From: Candidatus Physcocola equi | GTDB taxonomy: Bacteria; Bacteroidota; Bacteroidia; Bacteroidales; Paludibacteraceae | Reading direction: 5' to 3' | Assembly (NCBI GenBank): GCA_018064855.1 | Contig: JAGHUM010000001.1 | Location: 1-64,000, forward strand | DNA: 64,000 bases | Notes under the pieces: generated by a model | What the model was told of the DNA's origin: nothing | The model's input: the letters and a program-made list of their open reading frames with translations, nothing else | The model's database searches: none | Translations under genes and position numbers: made by a program | Part shown: positions 6,334 to 13,122 of the stretch, in pieces | How the letters are laid out: every line of letters starts with the position of its first letter | Position numbering within the stretch: position 1 is the stretch's first letter

Positions 6334-6525
6334 ATGCACAGAAAAAGCATACTCCATCAAATAGACCTGATGCTGCCTCATGGAGATACGATAAGCGTAT
6401 CTGTTCGTAAGGCCTACTTTGGAGAGGTCATGGCAAAGGTTGATTTGGCAGATTGCATTAAACTTACTGTGGAAGATAGTGGTAAGCGGTCTTATGAACC
6501 TTTCAAAAGAGAAATAGATAAATAA
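6334..6525 (+). other. Unassigned short frame next to element A
   Basis: A 63-codon frame encodes a basic and acidic peptide with a plausible amphipathic second half (GEVMAKVDLADCIKLTVEDS). An overlapping frame beginning at 6286 (start MIFQKVDPYANALN) is open to about 6408 and also looks protein-like. The two together may be a decayed gene with a frameshift. I recognise no family and see no promoter. The leu-operon terminator begins 5 bases after its stop. Confidence 0.25.
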
Positions 6526-6529
6526 AAAA

Positions 6530-6555
6530 GGCGCATCATATTTCTATGATGCACC
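6530..6555 (-). terminator. Terminator of the leu operon
   Basis: GGCGCATCATA (6530-6540) pairs with TATGATGCACC (6545-6555) with one mismatch. On the minus strand it is followed by TTTTTTATTTA. Confidence 0.85.
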
Positions 6556-6592: not shown

Positions 6593-7654
6593 TTACTTCT
6601 TGTTGATGTAGTCAACAATCCAAGCGCCTACTTCTTTGGTGCCATATTTTGCACCACCTTCAACCTGGATTTCAGGAGTGCGTACGTTAGCATCGAGAGA
6701 AGCGTTTACGGCTTCACGGATAATCTTGCCTTCTGCTTTAAGACCGAAGTATTCAAACAACATGGCAACAGAGAGAATCTGAGCCAATGGGTTTGCGATG
6801 TTCAATCCCTTTGCCTGTGGCCATGAACCGTGGATTGGCTCAAATACAGGAGTGTGCTCACCTGTAGATGCCGATGGAAGCAAGCCCATAGAACCTGTGA
6901 TGCATGAGCCTTCGTCGGTAAGGATGTCACCGAATGTGTTTTCGGTTACCATAACGTCGAAGAACTTAGGCTCTTGAATCATGCGCATAGATGCGTTGTC
7001 AACATACATGAAGTCGGTTTTCACATCAGGATATTGTGGAGCCATTTCCTGAGCAACAGCTCTCCACAAACGAGAAGAAGCCAAAACGTTGGCCTTATCT
7101 ACAACGGTAAGGTGTTTGTTGCGCTGCTGTGCGTATTTGTATGCTTCCTTCAAAATGCGGACTACTTCTTCGCGGCTGTATGCGTTGGTGTCGTAAGCGT
7201 AGTCAACGCCTTCTTTCTTTTCGCCGAAATACATACCACCAGTCAATTCGCGGATGCAGATGAAGTCTGCGCCTCTTACCAATTCGTCTTTCAATGGGCT
7301 TTTGTGGACAAGGCAGTCGAAGGTCTCGATTGGACGGATGTTTGCGAACAAACCGAGTTTCTTACGCATTGCCAACAAACCCTGTTCAGGACGGACCTTA
7401 GCATTTGGATTGTTGTCGAATTTTGGGTCGCCTACTGCAGAGAAGAGGACAGCGTCTGCGTCCATACATTTCTTGAAGGTTTCTTCTGGGAATGGGTCCC
7501 CAACTTTGTCGATTGCGTCTGCGCCGCAGATGGCGTATTCGTAGCTGACCTTGTGGCCAAACTTGTTGCAAACGGCAGTCATTACGTTCACGCCCTGTTC
7601 TGAGATTTCTGGGCCGATGCCATCACCTGGCAATACTGCGATTTTAAAATCCAT
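6593..7654 (-). CDS. leuB: 3-isopropylmalate dehydrogenase
   Basis: The enzyme oxidatively decarboxylates 3-isopropylmalate to 2-ketoisocaproate with NAD+, the third step of leucine synthesis. The 353-residue length is normal. Family marks are GDGIGPEIS near the N-terminus, the substrate-binding [15 protein letters not shown], the [10 protein letters not shown] segment and the metal-binding [10 protein letters not shown]. It is the last gene of the minus-strand leu operon, 36 bases after the citramalate synthase-like gene and directly before the operon terminator. Control should come from the attenuator in front of leuA. Confidence 0.97.
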
Positions 7655-7690: not shown

Positions 7691-9271
7691 TTAGTCTTCT
7701 TTTGTCTGCTCTGATGCCTGGTCATAGAGGTCTTCTATGAGGTTGAGCATTTTAATGGTGGCTTTTATGGCCGCCTCCATTTGGTCGGCGTCGAGTCCGC
7801 GTGTGCGGTAACTTTTGCCTTCAAATGTCCACGAAATACTGGTCTGAACCAAAGCGTCGGTGCGTCCGCCTGGTGGAATGGACACCGCATAGTTGGTGAG
7901 CCAAGGGAATTTGCGGTTCAACTTTTCGCGGTAGATGTGACGCACGGCTCTTACGAAAGCATCGTACTGACCATCGCCGGTGGCTGTTTCCTCGTAGCAT
8001 ACTCCATTTATCTCCACACGCACGCTGGCAAGAGGTTTCAGCCCGTATGAGGTGCTGACGAGGTAACTGTCGAGTTTCACCCTGTCGTCGTTGGCGCTGT
8101 GTTTCACCACGTCGGCTACGATGTATGGCAGGTCTTCCGGTGTGACGAGCTCTTTTTTGTCTCCGAGCTCAATCACGCGTTGTGTGACAGCCTTGGTCTG
8201 TTCTGGGGTTAGTGCCAAGCCTAATTCTTCGAGATTGCGAAGGATGTTGGCTTTGCCACTGTTTTTCCCGAGTGCGTATTCTCGTTTCCTTCCGAAGCGT
8301 TCGGGAAGCAGGTTGTTCATGTAAAGTCCTGCTTTGTTGTCTCCGTCGGCATGTACGCCCGCCACTTGTGTGAAAACGCTGTCGCCCACCACAGGTTTGT
8401 TTGGTGGAATGGCGATGCCACAATACGATTCAACGAGGTGGCTGACCTCAGTCAGTTTTTCCTCTTTGATGTTGGTTGCTGCGTTGTAGTGGTCGTGCAA
8501 TGCCGCTTGAACACTGGCAAGAGGTGCGTTGCCGGCACGTTCACCCAATCCGTTGATGGTGGTGTGCAGCCCGGTTGCCCCAGCGCTGACAGCCGCCATG
8601 GCATTGGCTACAGCCAGGTCGTAGTCGTTGTGCGCATGGAAGTCGAATTTCAGATCGGGGTATCGGTCTGTCATCAGTTTCACACCTTCTTTGGCATTGT
8701 CGGGAGTGAGGATGCCGAGTGTGTCTGGCAGCATAAAGTGCTTGATGCCGCAGTCGCGCAGGTTGTCCATCATAAAGAAGACGTAGTCGGGGCTGTTTTT
8801 GATGCCGTTGCTCCAGTCTTCCAGGTAGATGTTCACATCTATGCCCAGTTGGTGCGCATACGCGATGCTGTCTTTGATGCCGGCCAAATGTTCTTCGGGA
8901 GTTTTCTTCAACTGCTGTGTGCAGTGGAGCAGAGAGCCTTTGGTGAGCAGGTTGATGTTTTTGCATCCTGTGTCGTGAATCCAGTCGAGACTGGCGTGTC
9001 CATCGACAAATCCGAGCACTTCAATGCGGTTGAGCAGACCTTCTTTTTCCGCCCATTGGCAGATTTTCTTCACCGCTTCTTTCTCACCGTCGCTCACGCG
9101 GGCAGAGGCCACTTCAATGCGGTCCACGCCCACTTCCTGCAACAGTGTGCGGCAGAGAATGAGTTTTTCGTGGGGCACAAAACTCACTCCGCTGGTTTGT
9201 TCACCGTCGCGGAGTGTTGTGTCCATTATTTCAATGCTGTATCTTAGGCGTTCTGTGCTTTCTTTTCCCAT
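7691..9271 (-). CDS. Isopropylmalate/citramalate synthase family
   Basis: A second LeuA-family acyltransferase (526 residues) in the operon. The N-terminal HMGL-like TIM barrel has [24 protein letters not shown] and NGLGERAGN. A C-terminal LeuA-type regulatory dimer domain follows (around VSTSYGLKPLASVRVE). It differs strongly from the leuA product upstream and is closer to the citramalate synthase (LeuA3/CimA) type, which condenses pyruvate with acetyl-CoA for isoleucine synthesis. LeuCD and LeuB can then process citramalate, which would explain its place between leuD and leuB. Its ATG at 9271 lies 28 bases inside leuD, suggesting translational coupling. Substrate is inferred; isopropylmalate or homocitrate synthase remain possible. 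Confidence 0.85.
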   Translation of the reverse strand: MGKESTERLRYSIEIMDTTLRDGEQTSGVSFVPHEKLILCRTLLQEVGVDRIEVASARVSDGEKEAVKKICQWAEKEGLLNRIEVLGFVDGHASLDWIHDTGCKNINLLTKGSLLHCTQQLKKTPEEHLAGIKDSIAYAHQLGIDVNIYLEDWSNGIKNSPDYVFFMMDNLRDCGIKHFMLPDTLGILTPDNAKEGVKLMTDRYPDLKFDFHAHNDYDLAVANAMAAVSAGATGLHTTINGLGERAGNAPLASVQAALHDHYNAATNIKEEKLTEVSHLVESYCGIAIPPNKPVVGDSVFTQVAGVHADGDNKAGLYMNNLLPERFGRKREYALGKNSGKANILRNLEELGLALTPEQTKAVTQRVIELGDKKELVTPEDLPYIVADVVKHSANDDRVKLDSYLVSTSYGLKPLASVRVEINGVCYEETATGDGQYDAFVRAVRHIYREKLNRKFPWLTNYAVSIPPGGRTDALVQTSISWTFEGKSYRTRGLDADQMEAAIKATIKMLNLIEDLYDQASEQTKED

Positions 9272-9840
9272 GCCTCAATCTTGTCTTTGTTTTCCAACAA
9301 GAAGTCGATGTCGTCGAGGGCGTTCATCAAGCAGTATTTCTTGTATCCGTTGATTTCAAACTTTTCGCTCTTGCCGGTTGCGAGGTTGGTTACTGTCTGG
9401 TTAGGGAGGTCAACCTTAACTTCCATTTTAGGGTTGCTGTTGATGCTTGCGAAGAGTTCTGCAAGGAAGCCTTCAGAAACCACTACAGGAAGAACGAAGT
9501 TGTTGAGCTCGTTGTTTTTGTGGATGTCGGCGAAGAAGCTTGAGATAACCACGCGGAATCCGTAACCTGCGATGGCCCATGCTGCGTGTTCACGGCTTGA
9601 GCCGCTGCCAAAGTTCTTGCCGGCTACGAGGATGCAACCTCCGTAGGTTGGATCGTTGAGCACGAAATCCTTGATTGGGTTTCCGTTTTTGTCGTAGCGC
9701 CAGTCGCGGAAAAGGTTTTCGCCGAAACCGTTCTTGTCGGTAGCCTTCAAGAAACGTGCTGGAATGATCTGGTCGGTGTCCACATTTTCAAGTGGAAGAG
9801 GCACACATGTGCTGGTGATGATATCGAATTTTTCTTTCAT
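9244..9840 (-). CDS. leuD: 3-isopropylmalate dehydratase, small subunit
   Basis: LeuD pairs with LeuC to isomerise 2-isopropylmalate to 3-isopropylmalate. The 198-residue protein has the swivel-domain marks DTDQIIPARFLK near the N-terminus and the substrate-contacting GSGSSREHAAWAI at about residues 80-92. It lies 49 bases after leuC and overlaps the following gene by 28 bases, so the three are one translational unit. Confidence 0.97.
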   Translation of the reverse strand: MKEKFDIITSTCVPLPLENVDTDQIIPARFLKATDKNGFGENLFRDWRYDKNGNPIKDFVLNDPTYGGCILVAGKNFGSGSSREHAAWAIAGYGFRVVISSFFADIHKNNELNNFVLPVVVSEGFLAELFASINSNPKMEVKVDLPNQTVTNLATGKSEKFEINGYKKYCLMNALDDIDFLLENKDKIEAWEKKAQNA

Positions 9841-9889: not shown

Positions 9890-11284
9890 TTACATCATTG
9901 TTCTTGGGTCGGTGATCACACCTGTGACTGCTGCAGCTGCGGCTACGAGTGGGCTGGCGAGGACGGTGCGAGCGCCTGGTCCCTGACGGCCTTCGAAGTT
10001 ACGGTTTGAAGTTGAAACCGAAAGTTTGCCTGCAGGAATCTTGTCGTCGTTCATGGCGAGACAAGCAGAGCAGCCTGGTTGACGGAGTTCGAAACCGGCA
10101 GCTTCAAAAATCTTGTCAAGACCTTCTTCGCGGATCTGCTGATCTACCATCCAAGAACCAGGAACGAGCCAGCAAATCACGTTGTCGGCTTTCTTCTTGC
10201 CTTTTACGATAGAGGCGAATGCGCGGAAGTCTTCAATACGGCCATTGGTGCAAGAACCGCAGAATACATAGTCCACTTTTTTGCCGAGGAGGCTGTCGCC
10301 TGGTGCGAAGCCCATATATTCAAGGCTCTTCTTATAAGAGATCTGACCGGCTGCGTCGATGGTGTCGAGAGTTGGAATGTGCTGGCTGATGCCCATGCCC
10401 ATGCCTGGGTTGGTTCCGTAGGTTACCATTGGCTCGATGTCGGCAGCGTCAAACTTGATGTCTTTGTCGAATACTGCGTCATCACCGCTCTTGAGCGTGC
10501 TCCAGTAAGCGACTGCTTTGTCCCATTCTTCTCCCTTTGGTGCGTATTCACGGCCCTTGAGGTATTCAAATGTGACTTCGTCTGGTGCGATGAAACCGCC
10601 ACGAGCGCCCATTTCGATAGTGAGGTTGCTGAGGGTGAGACGGCCTTCCATGCTGAGACTCTTAACTGCAGAACCTGCATATTCAACGAAATAGCCTGTT
10701 GCGCCAGAGGTGCTCATCTTGCTCATGATGTAGAGTGCGACGTCTTTTGCAGTAACGCCCTTCTTGAGCTGGCCTTCAACGCTGATACGCATTGATTTTG
10801 GCTTAGATTGAAGGATGCACTGTGATGCCATAACCATTTCCACTTCAGATGTGCCGATACCGAATGCAACAGCACCCATGGCTCCGTGGGTTGAAGTGTG
10901 GCTGTCGCCGCATACGATGGTCATGCCGGGAAGAGAAAGACCACGTTCTGGACCAACGACGTGGATGATACCGTTTTTAGGGTCCATCATGCCGAAGTGT
11001 GTCAATCCGAAGTCGGCTGTGTTCTTTGCGAGAGTGTCAACCTGCTTGCGTGAAACTGGGTCTTCAATAGGTTTGTCCTGGTCGTGAGTTGGGGTGTTGT
11101 GGTCTGGCATGCAGACAATATGGTCTGGGCGGAAGCATTTCAAACCGCGTTCACGCATGCCTGCGAAAGCCTGCGGAGAAGTTACTTCGTGGCAGTAAAG
11201 ACGATCGATGTAGAGCTGTGTTGGTCCGTCTTCTACGATCTGAACCACGTGCTTATCCCAAATTTTGTCGAATAACGTATTCAT
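9890..11284 (-). CDS. leuC: 3-isopropylmalate dehydratase, large subunit
   Basis: The aconitase-family catalytic subunit (464 residues) holds the [4Fe-4S] cluster. The expected Cys ligands are visible in FCGSCTNGR and in [10 protein letters not shown] near the C-terminus, with [13 protein letters not shown] in the first third. It works with LeuD on isopropylmalate and probably also on citramalate from the neighbouring synthase. It begins 53 bases after leuA in the same operon. Confidence 0.97.
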
Positions 11285-11337: not shown

Positions 11338-12837
11338 TCAATGCACAAACTTATTAATTGCGTCGATGTAGGCTTCTGCCGATGCTGCTACGATGTCGGT
11401 ATTGGCAGAGAATCCTTGGTAGGTTATGCCGTCGCATTCCACCTGCATGTGCACTTTCCCAAGATCGCCGCTTCCTTTTGTGATGTTTTGGATGAGGATG
11501 TCTTGGAGCGTCATCTTGCGGTTGATGATCTTCTTGATGGCGTTGATGGCGGCATCAACAGGACCGTTACCGTTGGCGGCACCTTCAAACTTCTCGCCTG
11601 CGATGTCGAGGCCGATGGAAGCGATAGGTCTCAAGCCCACGCCGGAGGTGACCTGGAGGTAGTCGATCTTGATGCGCTGTCCGGCTACGCGGTCGCGACC
11701 TGCGAGCATCAGAATGTCGTCGTCGTTGATTTCTTTCTTTTTGTCGGCCAAGTCAAGGAATGCTTTATAAATTTCATCGAGCTTGTTTTGATCGCTGAGG
11801 TCAACACCGAGCACGTGCAGGCGGTGCTTCAAGGCTGCGCGTCCGCTGCGGGCTGTCAAGATGATTTCGTTATTGTCGATACCCACATCTTTAGGGTCGA
11901 TGATTTCGTAAGTGTCTTTGTTTTTCAACACACCGTCTTGGTGAATGCCCGAGCTGTGAGCGAAAGCGTTGCGGCCCACGATGGCTTTGTTTGGCTGGAT
12001 AGGCATGTTCATCAAGCTGGAAACCATAGTGCTAACATGGTGGATGTGTTGGGTGTTGAGGTTGGTGTCGATGTCGATGTCTTTATGGCAGCGCAAGATC
12101 ATGCCGACTTCTTCCAAGGCAGTGTTACCTGCTCGTTCGCCGATACCGTTGATGGTTACTTCCACCTGGCGTGCGCCATTGAGCACACCCGAAATGGTGT
12201 TGGCTGTGGCCATACCAAGGTCGTTGTGGCAGTGGGTTGAAAGACGTGCGTTGTGAATGCCATCCACATGATCCATCAGATATTTGATTTTTGCACCGTA
12301 TTCCTGTGGCAGACAGTAACCGGTGGTGTCGGGAATGTTGACTACTGTGGCTCCGGCTTTGATGACGGCTTCCACCACGCGAGCCAAATATTCGTTGTCG
12401 GCACGCCCTGCGTCTTCGCAGTAGAATTCAACATCTTCCACATACTTTTTGGCATATTTTGTTGCTGCCACTGCACGTTCGATGATCTCCTCAGGAGTTG
12501 AGTTGAACTTGTAGCGGATATGCGATTCTGAAACGCCGATACCAGTGTGGATGCGTTTGTTTTTAGCGAATTTGAGGGCGTCTGCTGCCACGTCGATGTC
12601 TTTTTGAACGGCACGGGTGAGTGCGCATATAGTAGGCCAAGTGACGGCTTTTGAGATTTCCTCTACCGAGTGGAAATCGCCAGGGCTGGAGATTGGGAAA
12701 CCAGCCTCGATGATGTCAACTCCGAGCAATTCCAGCGCCTTTGCCACTTCGATTTTCTCTACGGTGTTCAGCTGGCATCCTGGGACTTGTTCTCCGTCGC
12801 GCAGGGTGGTGTCGAAAATGTACAGTCTGTCTGACAT
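11338..12837 (-). CDS. leuA: 2-isopropylmalate synthase
   Basis: LeuA condenses 2-ketoisovalerate with acetyl-CoA, the committed step of leucine synthesis, and is usually inhibited by leucine through its C-terminal domain. The 499-residue protein has [15 protein letters not shown], the metal-site [23 protein letters not shown] and [12 protein letters not shown] in the barrel part. The LeuA dimer domain follows from about residue 375 ([14 protein letters not shown]). It is first in the operon. Between it and its promoter lie a Leu/Ile-rich leader peptide (12972-13040) and a terminator hairpin (12908-12941). Confidence 0.97.
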
Positions 12838-12907
12838 ATTGTTTGTCTTTTTTAATTAATTCAAAATTAGGTTGATAGAAAAATCGCCGAATGGCGTAAT
12901 AATAAGA

Positions 12908-12941
12908 AAAGCCTTTCTCATTGGGAAGTGAGAAAGGCTTT
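12908..12941 (-). terminator. leu attenuator terminator
   Basis: A 13-bp stem (12908-12920 with 12929-12941) around an 8-base loop, followed on the minus strand by TTTTCTTATTATT. It lies after the leader peptide and 70 bases before leuA, where it would abort transcription of the operon when leucine is plentiful. Confidence 0.85.
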
Positions 12942-12996
12942 CGTATTTCGTATCGCTTTGGCCACAAACTCTCACTCCCCCTTGCATCGCAAGAGT
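12923..12996 (-). promoter_or_regulatory. leu leader alternative RNA pairings
   Basis: On the minus strand GGGGAGTGAG (plus 12971-12980), which covers the leader stop codon, can pair with CTCACTTCCC (plus 12923-12932), part of the terminator stem and loop, with one G-U pair. This is an antiterminator. The same segment can pair instead with upstream leader codons (ACTC-TTGC ... GCAA ... GAGT within 12974-12996), a 1:2-type pause hairpin. A ribosome stalled at the Leu codons would free the antiterminator. One that reaches the stop codon would cover it and let the terminator form. Confidence 0.75.
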
Positions 12997-13040
12997 AGAA
13001 TTAGAGAAGTTAGAATCTGTGCTGAAGCTATTGTTGCCAT
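12972..13040 (-). CDS. leuL: leu operon leader peptide
   Basis: A 22-codon frame starts at ATG 13040 and ends with TGA at 12974-12972. Residues 9-17 read ILTSLILLL: five Leu and two Ile in nine codons. Three of the Leu codons are CTA, which appears rare in the long genes around it, where TTG, CTT, CTC and CTG dominate. It sits between the promoter (13091-13098) and the attenuator hairpin, as E. coli leuL or ilvL peptides do. Its role would be to sense charged tRNA-Leu (and perhaps tRNA-Ile) by ribosome stalling, not to make a functional product. No Shine-Dalgarno sequence is evident, as is usual in this phylum. Confidence 0.85.
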   Translation of the reverse strand: MATIASAQILTSLILLLRCKGE

Positions 13041-13090
13041 ATTGCTTTTGCTTTTTTCGTTGAAATTTCTATTTCTTTTGTTTTGTGGTG

Positions 13091-13122
13091 CAAATTTACT
13101 TCTTTTTTTGCCAATCTTCCAA
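13091..13122 (-). promoter_or_regulatory. leu operon promoter
   Basis: The minus strand has TTGG (plus 13119-13122), a 20-base spacer and TAAATTTG (plus 13091-13098), fitting the Bacteroidota -33/-7 arrangement. Transcription would begin near 13084, about 44 bases before the leader peptide ATG. Confidence 0.65.

Follow-up and report, generated by a model that had tools for sequence, protein, structure and literature searches.

What controls transcription of the leu operon of Candidatus Physcocola equi, and which amino acids does that control respond to? In E. coli, it is well established that leader peptides can attenuate amino acid operons. A first-pass annotation of the window (the whole 64,000-nucleotide stretch analyzed here) had proposed such a mechanism upstream of leuA, with leucine as the signal. 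Our analysis indicated that this region is very probably a classical ribosome-mediated transcription attenuator over leuA-leuC-leuD-cimA-leuB, and that both Leu and Ile are probably sensed.

The leu operon and its leader

All five genes are on the minus strand. leuA, encoding 2-isopropylmalate synthase (11338..12837), is the first gene and matched NF002086 (713.7 bits) and TIGR00973 (652.2 bits), both above cut-off. It is followed by leuC (9890..11284; TIGR00170), leuD (9244..9840; TIGR00171), a cimA-like gene (7691..9271), and leuB (6593..7654; TIGR00169). The cimA-like gene was assigned as a probable citramalate synthase. Its best NCBIfam match was NF042433 (CimA, (R)-citramalate synthase) with 649 bits, under the cut-off of 950, and its second-best match was an isopropylmalate synthase model (369.7). 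Past leuB, a hairpin followed by TTTTTT (6524-6555, minus strand) is the probable end of the operon.

The leader lies on the minus strand between the promoter and leuA. The promoter (13091..13122) is of the Bacteroidetes type, with a -33-like TTGG at 13122-13119 and the -7 element TAAATTTG at 13098-13091. Of 125 leaders, 123 had the motif TAnnTTTG at 12-90 nt upstream of the ATG; of 125 shuffled ones, 10 had it. The leader ORF, MATIASAQILTSLILLLRCKGE, runs from 13040 to 12972 and has 22 codons plus TGA (12974-12972). It contains five Leu codons (CTA at positions 10, 13, and 15, as had been read in the first pass, CTC at 16, and TTG at 17) and three Ile codons, including ATT at 9 and 14.

Folding of the leader beat all 200 dinucleotide shuffles (z = -5.0). 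In hairpin 1:2 (12963..13021), the control-codon region pairs with the stop-codon region; its mean z was -2.24 over 145 leaders. The antiterminator is formed by region 2 (GGGGAGUGAGA, 12980-12970) and region 3 (UCUCACUUCCC, 12933-12923), which pair over 11 bp with one G-U. The alternative pairing noted earlier (12971-12980 with 12923-12932) was thus correct, and so was the placing of the stop codon in the antiterminator strand, the TGA being part of GGGGAGUGAGA. The 5' arm and the loop of terminator hairpin 3:4 (12909..12940) overlap with region 3; in this hairpin, AAAGCCUUUCUCA (12940-12928) pairs with UGAGAAAGGCUUU (12921-12909) at -17.6 kcal/mol. Behind it lies the U-rich tract UUUUCUUAUUAUU (12899..12912), which is interrupted, a point against the attenuator; the predicted premature 3' end is near 12900. 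Leader ORF, product-matched codons, terminator, and exclusive antiterminator were all found at this locus.

Conservation and predicted switching

The comparison drew on 228 non-redundant regions upstream of leuA, collected across the family, order, and phylum and in named genomes. In 57% of them, and in 4% of shuffles, there was a short ORF in which L, I, or V made up at least 7 of 10 residues. With at least 8 of 10 residues, the values were 35.5% and 0.6%. The 7-in-10 ORF was found in 73% of the loci where leuA identity was at least 75%, and about a quarter of close relatives missed it; in distant genomes, leaders may be misassigned and alternative starts are possible. A terminator followed the leader ORF in 144 of 157 cases, compared with 13% of 60 shuffles. 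The mean z of the antiterminator was -2.74 over 145 leaders. The set of promoter, leader peptide, antiterminator, and terminator recurred before leuA in relatives in the order claimed for the window, and the peptide and both pairings, on whose conservation the earlier proposal had been made to depend, were kept.

Covariation, which the first-pass annotation had suggested looking for, was analyzed in an alignment of 44 sequences. Compensatory changes were observed in both helices. In the antiterminator, five pairs had changed on both sides (19 cells, compared with 7.9 in shuffled alignments), and 81% of the cells were paired, compared with 30-59% after sliding the partners. In the terminator, six pairs had changed on both sides (28 cells against 9.0), and sliding the partners also sharply lowered the score. 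The alignment was picked by the GUGAG and CUCAC motifs, and the invariance of the core in it is partly due to this selection. Among unselected leaders, GUGAG or GUGGG was present in region 2 of 103 of 145, and the matching region 3 motif in 99 of 145. Across the order, a covariance model built from leu leaders matched 57 of the 196 genomes searched, and many of the others are without leuA. Among 196 genomes of the phylum, it gave ten weak matches besides that in the own genome. Tandem double matches of this model, possibly double attenuators, were seen at G224:C25 18251-18548, G339:C23 497052-497317, and G176:C429 632-903.

A structured leader ahead of an amino acid operon could also be a terminator controlled by a riboswitch or a T-box instead of a ribosome. 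Searches of the window and relatives with Rfam gave no above-threshold match at the leu leader locus, whether to a T-box, to a described riboswitch aptamer, or to any other family, and the Rfam Leu_leader covariance model gave no match, either at its gathering score or with E allowed up to 1. Conservation falls on an ORF carrying control codons and on the helices around its stop codon. Such control is extremely unlikely. A PyrR match in Rfam with an E of 0.72 was taken as chance. Elsewhere, L060:1503-1599 on the minus strand resembled a TPP riboswitch, below threshold (46.3 bits; gathering score 54.3).

In the ribosome-mediated attenuator, ample charged tRNA-Leu and tRNA-Ile would let the ribosome reach the stop codon and cover region 2. 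Region 3 would then pair with region 4, and transcription would stop near 12900. Under a shortage of Leu or Ile, the ribosome would stall at the CUA, AUU, or CUC codons and leave region 2 free. Free region 2 would pair with region 3 before region 4 exists, no terminator would form, and the operon would be transcribed. We infer that transcripts end near 12900, that ribosomes stall at the control codons, and that limitation of Ile as well as of Leu derepresses the operon.

This logic, which the first-pass annotation had put forward for leucine, was simulated by masking a ribosome footprint codon by codon. In the truncated transcript, region 4 is not yet made. Over 125 leaders, the mean probability of the antiterminator in this transcript was 0.90 with the ribosome at Leu/Ile codons and 0.15 with it at the stop codon, and 93% of leaders differed by more than 0.3 between the two positions. 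For the window leader, the switch flipped as soon as the ribosome had passed the last Leu control codon: the antiterminator was at 0.99 at that codon and at 0.18 at the next one, and it was at 0.49 at the stop codon. In the full-length window transcript, the terminator dominated (0.86-0.89) without a ribosome, with a ribosome at codons 8-10, or with one from codon 17 to the stop, and the antiterminator dominated (0.74-0.99) with the ribosome at codons 12-16. That the truncated window leader retains some antiterminator with the ribosome at the stop codon counts against the model, although the full-length fold then gives the terminator. Masking of the antiterminator by a ribosome at the stop codon, and not by one at the control codons, was seen in simulation only.

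Only 26% of leaders flipped when full-length transcripts were folded to equilibrium; therefore the switch must be kinetic, acting during transcription. Full-length equilibrium was dropped as a general switch test, as the truncated transcript is the state where the choice occurs. In known attenuators, the switch is likewise kinetic and takes place during transcription.

Control codons and the amino acids probably sensed

The control codons of the window leader are codons 10-17 (CTA ACT TCT CTA ATT CTA CTC TTG; 12990..13013, minus strand), where simulated stalling freed the antiterminator and CTA is enriched. Background codon usage was estimated from leuA genes and 29 genes of the window. In 130 leaders, CTA made up 28% of Leu codons, compared with 2% in the leuA genes of the same genomes and 2.4% in window genes. 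In the two non-coding frames of the leaders, CTA was 6% and 4% of Leu triplets, indicating that the CTA excess belongs to the coding frame. This enrichment supports the specific prediction of CTA as the control codon. ATT was 80% of Ile codons in the 130 leaders and 45% in the leuA genes of the same genomes.

The leu leaders contain nearly as much Ile as Leu. The 130 leaders have 654 Leu, 556 Ile, and 54 Val residues. The earlier choice of leucine as the signal agrees with the Leu codons; leucine as the sole signal is unlikely, and the near-equal Ile content across relatives had been missed. LeuC, LeuD, and LeuB serve both the leucine route and the citramalate-isoleucine route. The Ile richness is apparently explained by the probable citramalate synthase in the operon, which belongs to the isoleucine route. 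The mean Ile share of the leader was 0.27 in operons without cimA (n = 9, five of them from one genus) and 0.48 in operons with it (n = 118; p = 0.0006). Heminiphilus-type operons without cimA have the leader MNTTLLSLSLTSGLTLSK. Judged from these sequences, the attenuator most likely responds to Ile as well as to Leu, and its Ile codon content is likely tied to the presence of cimA in the operon.

The same attenuator could instead respond to leucine only, with the Ile codons arising from hydrophobic drift or RNA constraint. Leucine is the eponymous product of the operon, and in the window leader itself Leu codons outnumber Ile codons by five to three, with CTA used for three of the five. One operon without cimA (L306) kept its Ile codons (MNKTIIILSIILLA), a clear exception to the trend in Ile share. 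General hydrophobicity, however, would not give abundant Ile with so little Val, and both the lower Ile share of the cimA-less operons, five of nine being one genus, and the Heminiphilus-type leaders argue against leucine-only sensing. Leucine-only sensing is unlikely, and dual Leu and Ile sensing remains our reading.

One genus (L116, L118, L121, L125, L128, and L230-L232) has no cimA in its leu operon and few Ile codons in the leader. In three genomes of this cimA-losing genus, cimA has another location, behind the end of a different gene. No separate Ile leader was found for the displaced cimA.

Sister leaders and known systems

For many genomes in the family, the covariance model made from leu leaders alone had a second match besides the leu leader. 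In 18 of the 20 second-site stretches fetched, ilvD was the first gene and a readable leader was present. These 18 ilvD leaders contain 76 Val, 67 Leu, and 42 Ile residues. In the own genome, the ilvD leader is MFSHISNIGSNIVVVVVKNY, including IVVVVV (ORF 36431-36369, minus strand, G000:C98; L357), and its promoter, antiterminator, and terminator are laid out as in leu. Both strands of the ilv antiterminator are altered, CAAGAGAGAG pairing with CUUUCUCUUG. The duplex energies were -14.8 for the two ilv strands and -19.5 for the two leu strands, compared with -12.7 and -10.1 for the swapped strands.

All 12 genomes examined had pheA leaders with abundant Phe and Tyr, including the own genome, where the leader is MEVMQKNYFSYFFYYFYFIQ (L374, G000:C95), about 230-95 nt upstream of pheA. 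Past its stop codon lies GAGCGGG, which is complementary to CCCGCUC in the terminator. The Val in ilvD leaders and the Phe/Tyr in pheA leaders indicate that leader codons follow the operon product. His-rich ORFs were found in 3 of 11 hisG upstream regions; none was seen upstream of hisG in the own genome. In L360, L361, and L364, the His-rich short ORFs, such as MIAFIHHIHHHYQR, are followed by terminators. trpE was apparently not the first gene in most genomes examined, and within the flanks retrieved no leader could be seen upstream of thrA.

These leaders bear on whether the leu ORF could encode a small hydrophobic protein with its own function, the terminator being incidental. The ORF is indeed hydrophobic and its position is conserved. 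Its conserved residues, however, are mainly those of the operon product, encoded with rare CTA codons; the ilv and phe leaders put Val and Phe/Tyr into the same layout, and the stop codon is linked to both helices. A protein with its own function is thus very unlikely, and we take the ORF as the leader peptide of the attenuator.

On balance, Bacteroidales probably have an undescribed order-wide attenuator regulon (leu, ilv, phe, and some his) with one layout, in which leu is a dual Leu and Ile sensor whose codon mix follows the citramalate route in the operon. If true, such a regulon would require transcription-translation coupling in the leader regions of these Bacteroidota. Conserved attenuators would imply that, within these leaders, ribosomes keep pace with RNA polymerase, an implication open to direct test. 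A textbook mechanism would be extended to an important order of gut bacteria, with the rare leucine codon CUA used as in enterobacteria. The leu leaders supply a ready RNA family absent from Rfam, and they may offer an evolutionary case in which control codons track gene content.

The first-pass annotation had known of no description of this operon in the lineage. The literature searched, the coverage of which was incomplete, contained no account of attenuators ahead of leu or ilv genes in Bacteroidales. Reportedly, the abstract of a comparative study by Vitreschak et al. in 2004 includes Bacteroidetes/Chlorobi. Attenuation in Bacteroidota as such is not new, as it has already been proposed (PMC9723704; PMC2864571). 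In Flavobacterium psychrophilum, of the same phylum and another order, clues to leader-peptide attenuators upstream of amino acid operons have been described in a paper whose main text names no leu operon (PMC9723704). In B. thetaiotaomicron, sORFs reminiscent of leader peptides have been noted (PMC7366714). The Bacteroid-trp RNA motif (RF01692; Weinberg 2010, PMC2864571) is likewise a proposed cis-regulatory RNA of this phylum, and it was present near trp genes in same-genus relatives. It differs in operon and amino acid and had no match at the leu locus.

The ilv leaders of Proteobacteria, Corynebacterium, and Firmicutes also encode leader peptides for branched-chain operons, some with codons for several amino acids (PMC11857589, PMC5794164). 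In contrast, the leu leaders here combine Leu and Ile with little Val, the ilvD leaders combine Val, Leu, and Ile, and all belong to one order of Bacteroidota with one common RNA layout. A close likeness is to the leu attenuator of Salmonella typhimurium and E. coli (leuL; Rfam Leu_leader), which likewise has Leu control codons, a terminator, and an antiterminator before leuA. S. typhimurium leuL also uses three rare CUA control codons, and their replacement by CUG lowered sensitivity (PMC1183508). Unlike leuL, the leader described here has no Rfam match, a Bacteroidetes promoter, Leu and Ile codons jointly, an operon with a cimA-like gene, and an antiterminator core of GUGAG/CUCAC. It is probably a known mechanism in a new setting, with probable dual Leu/Ile sensing as its special feature.
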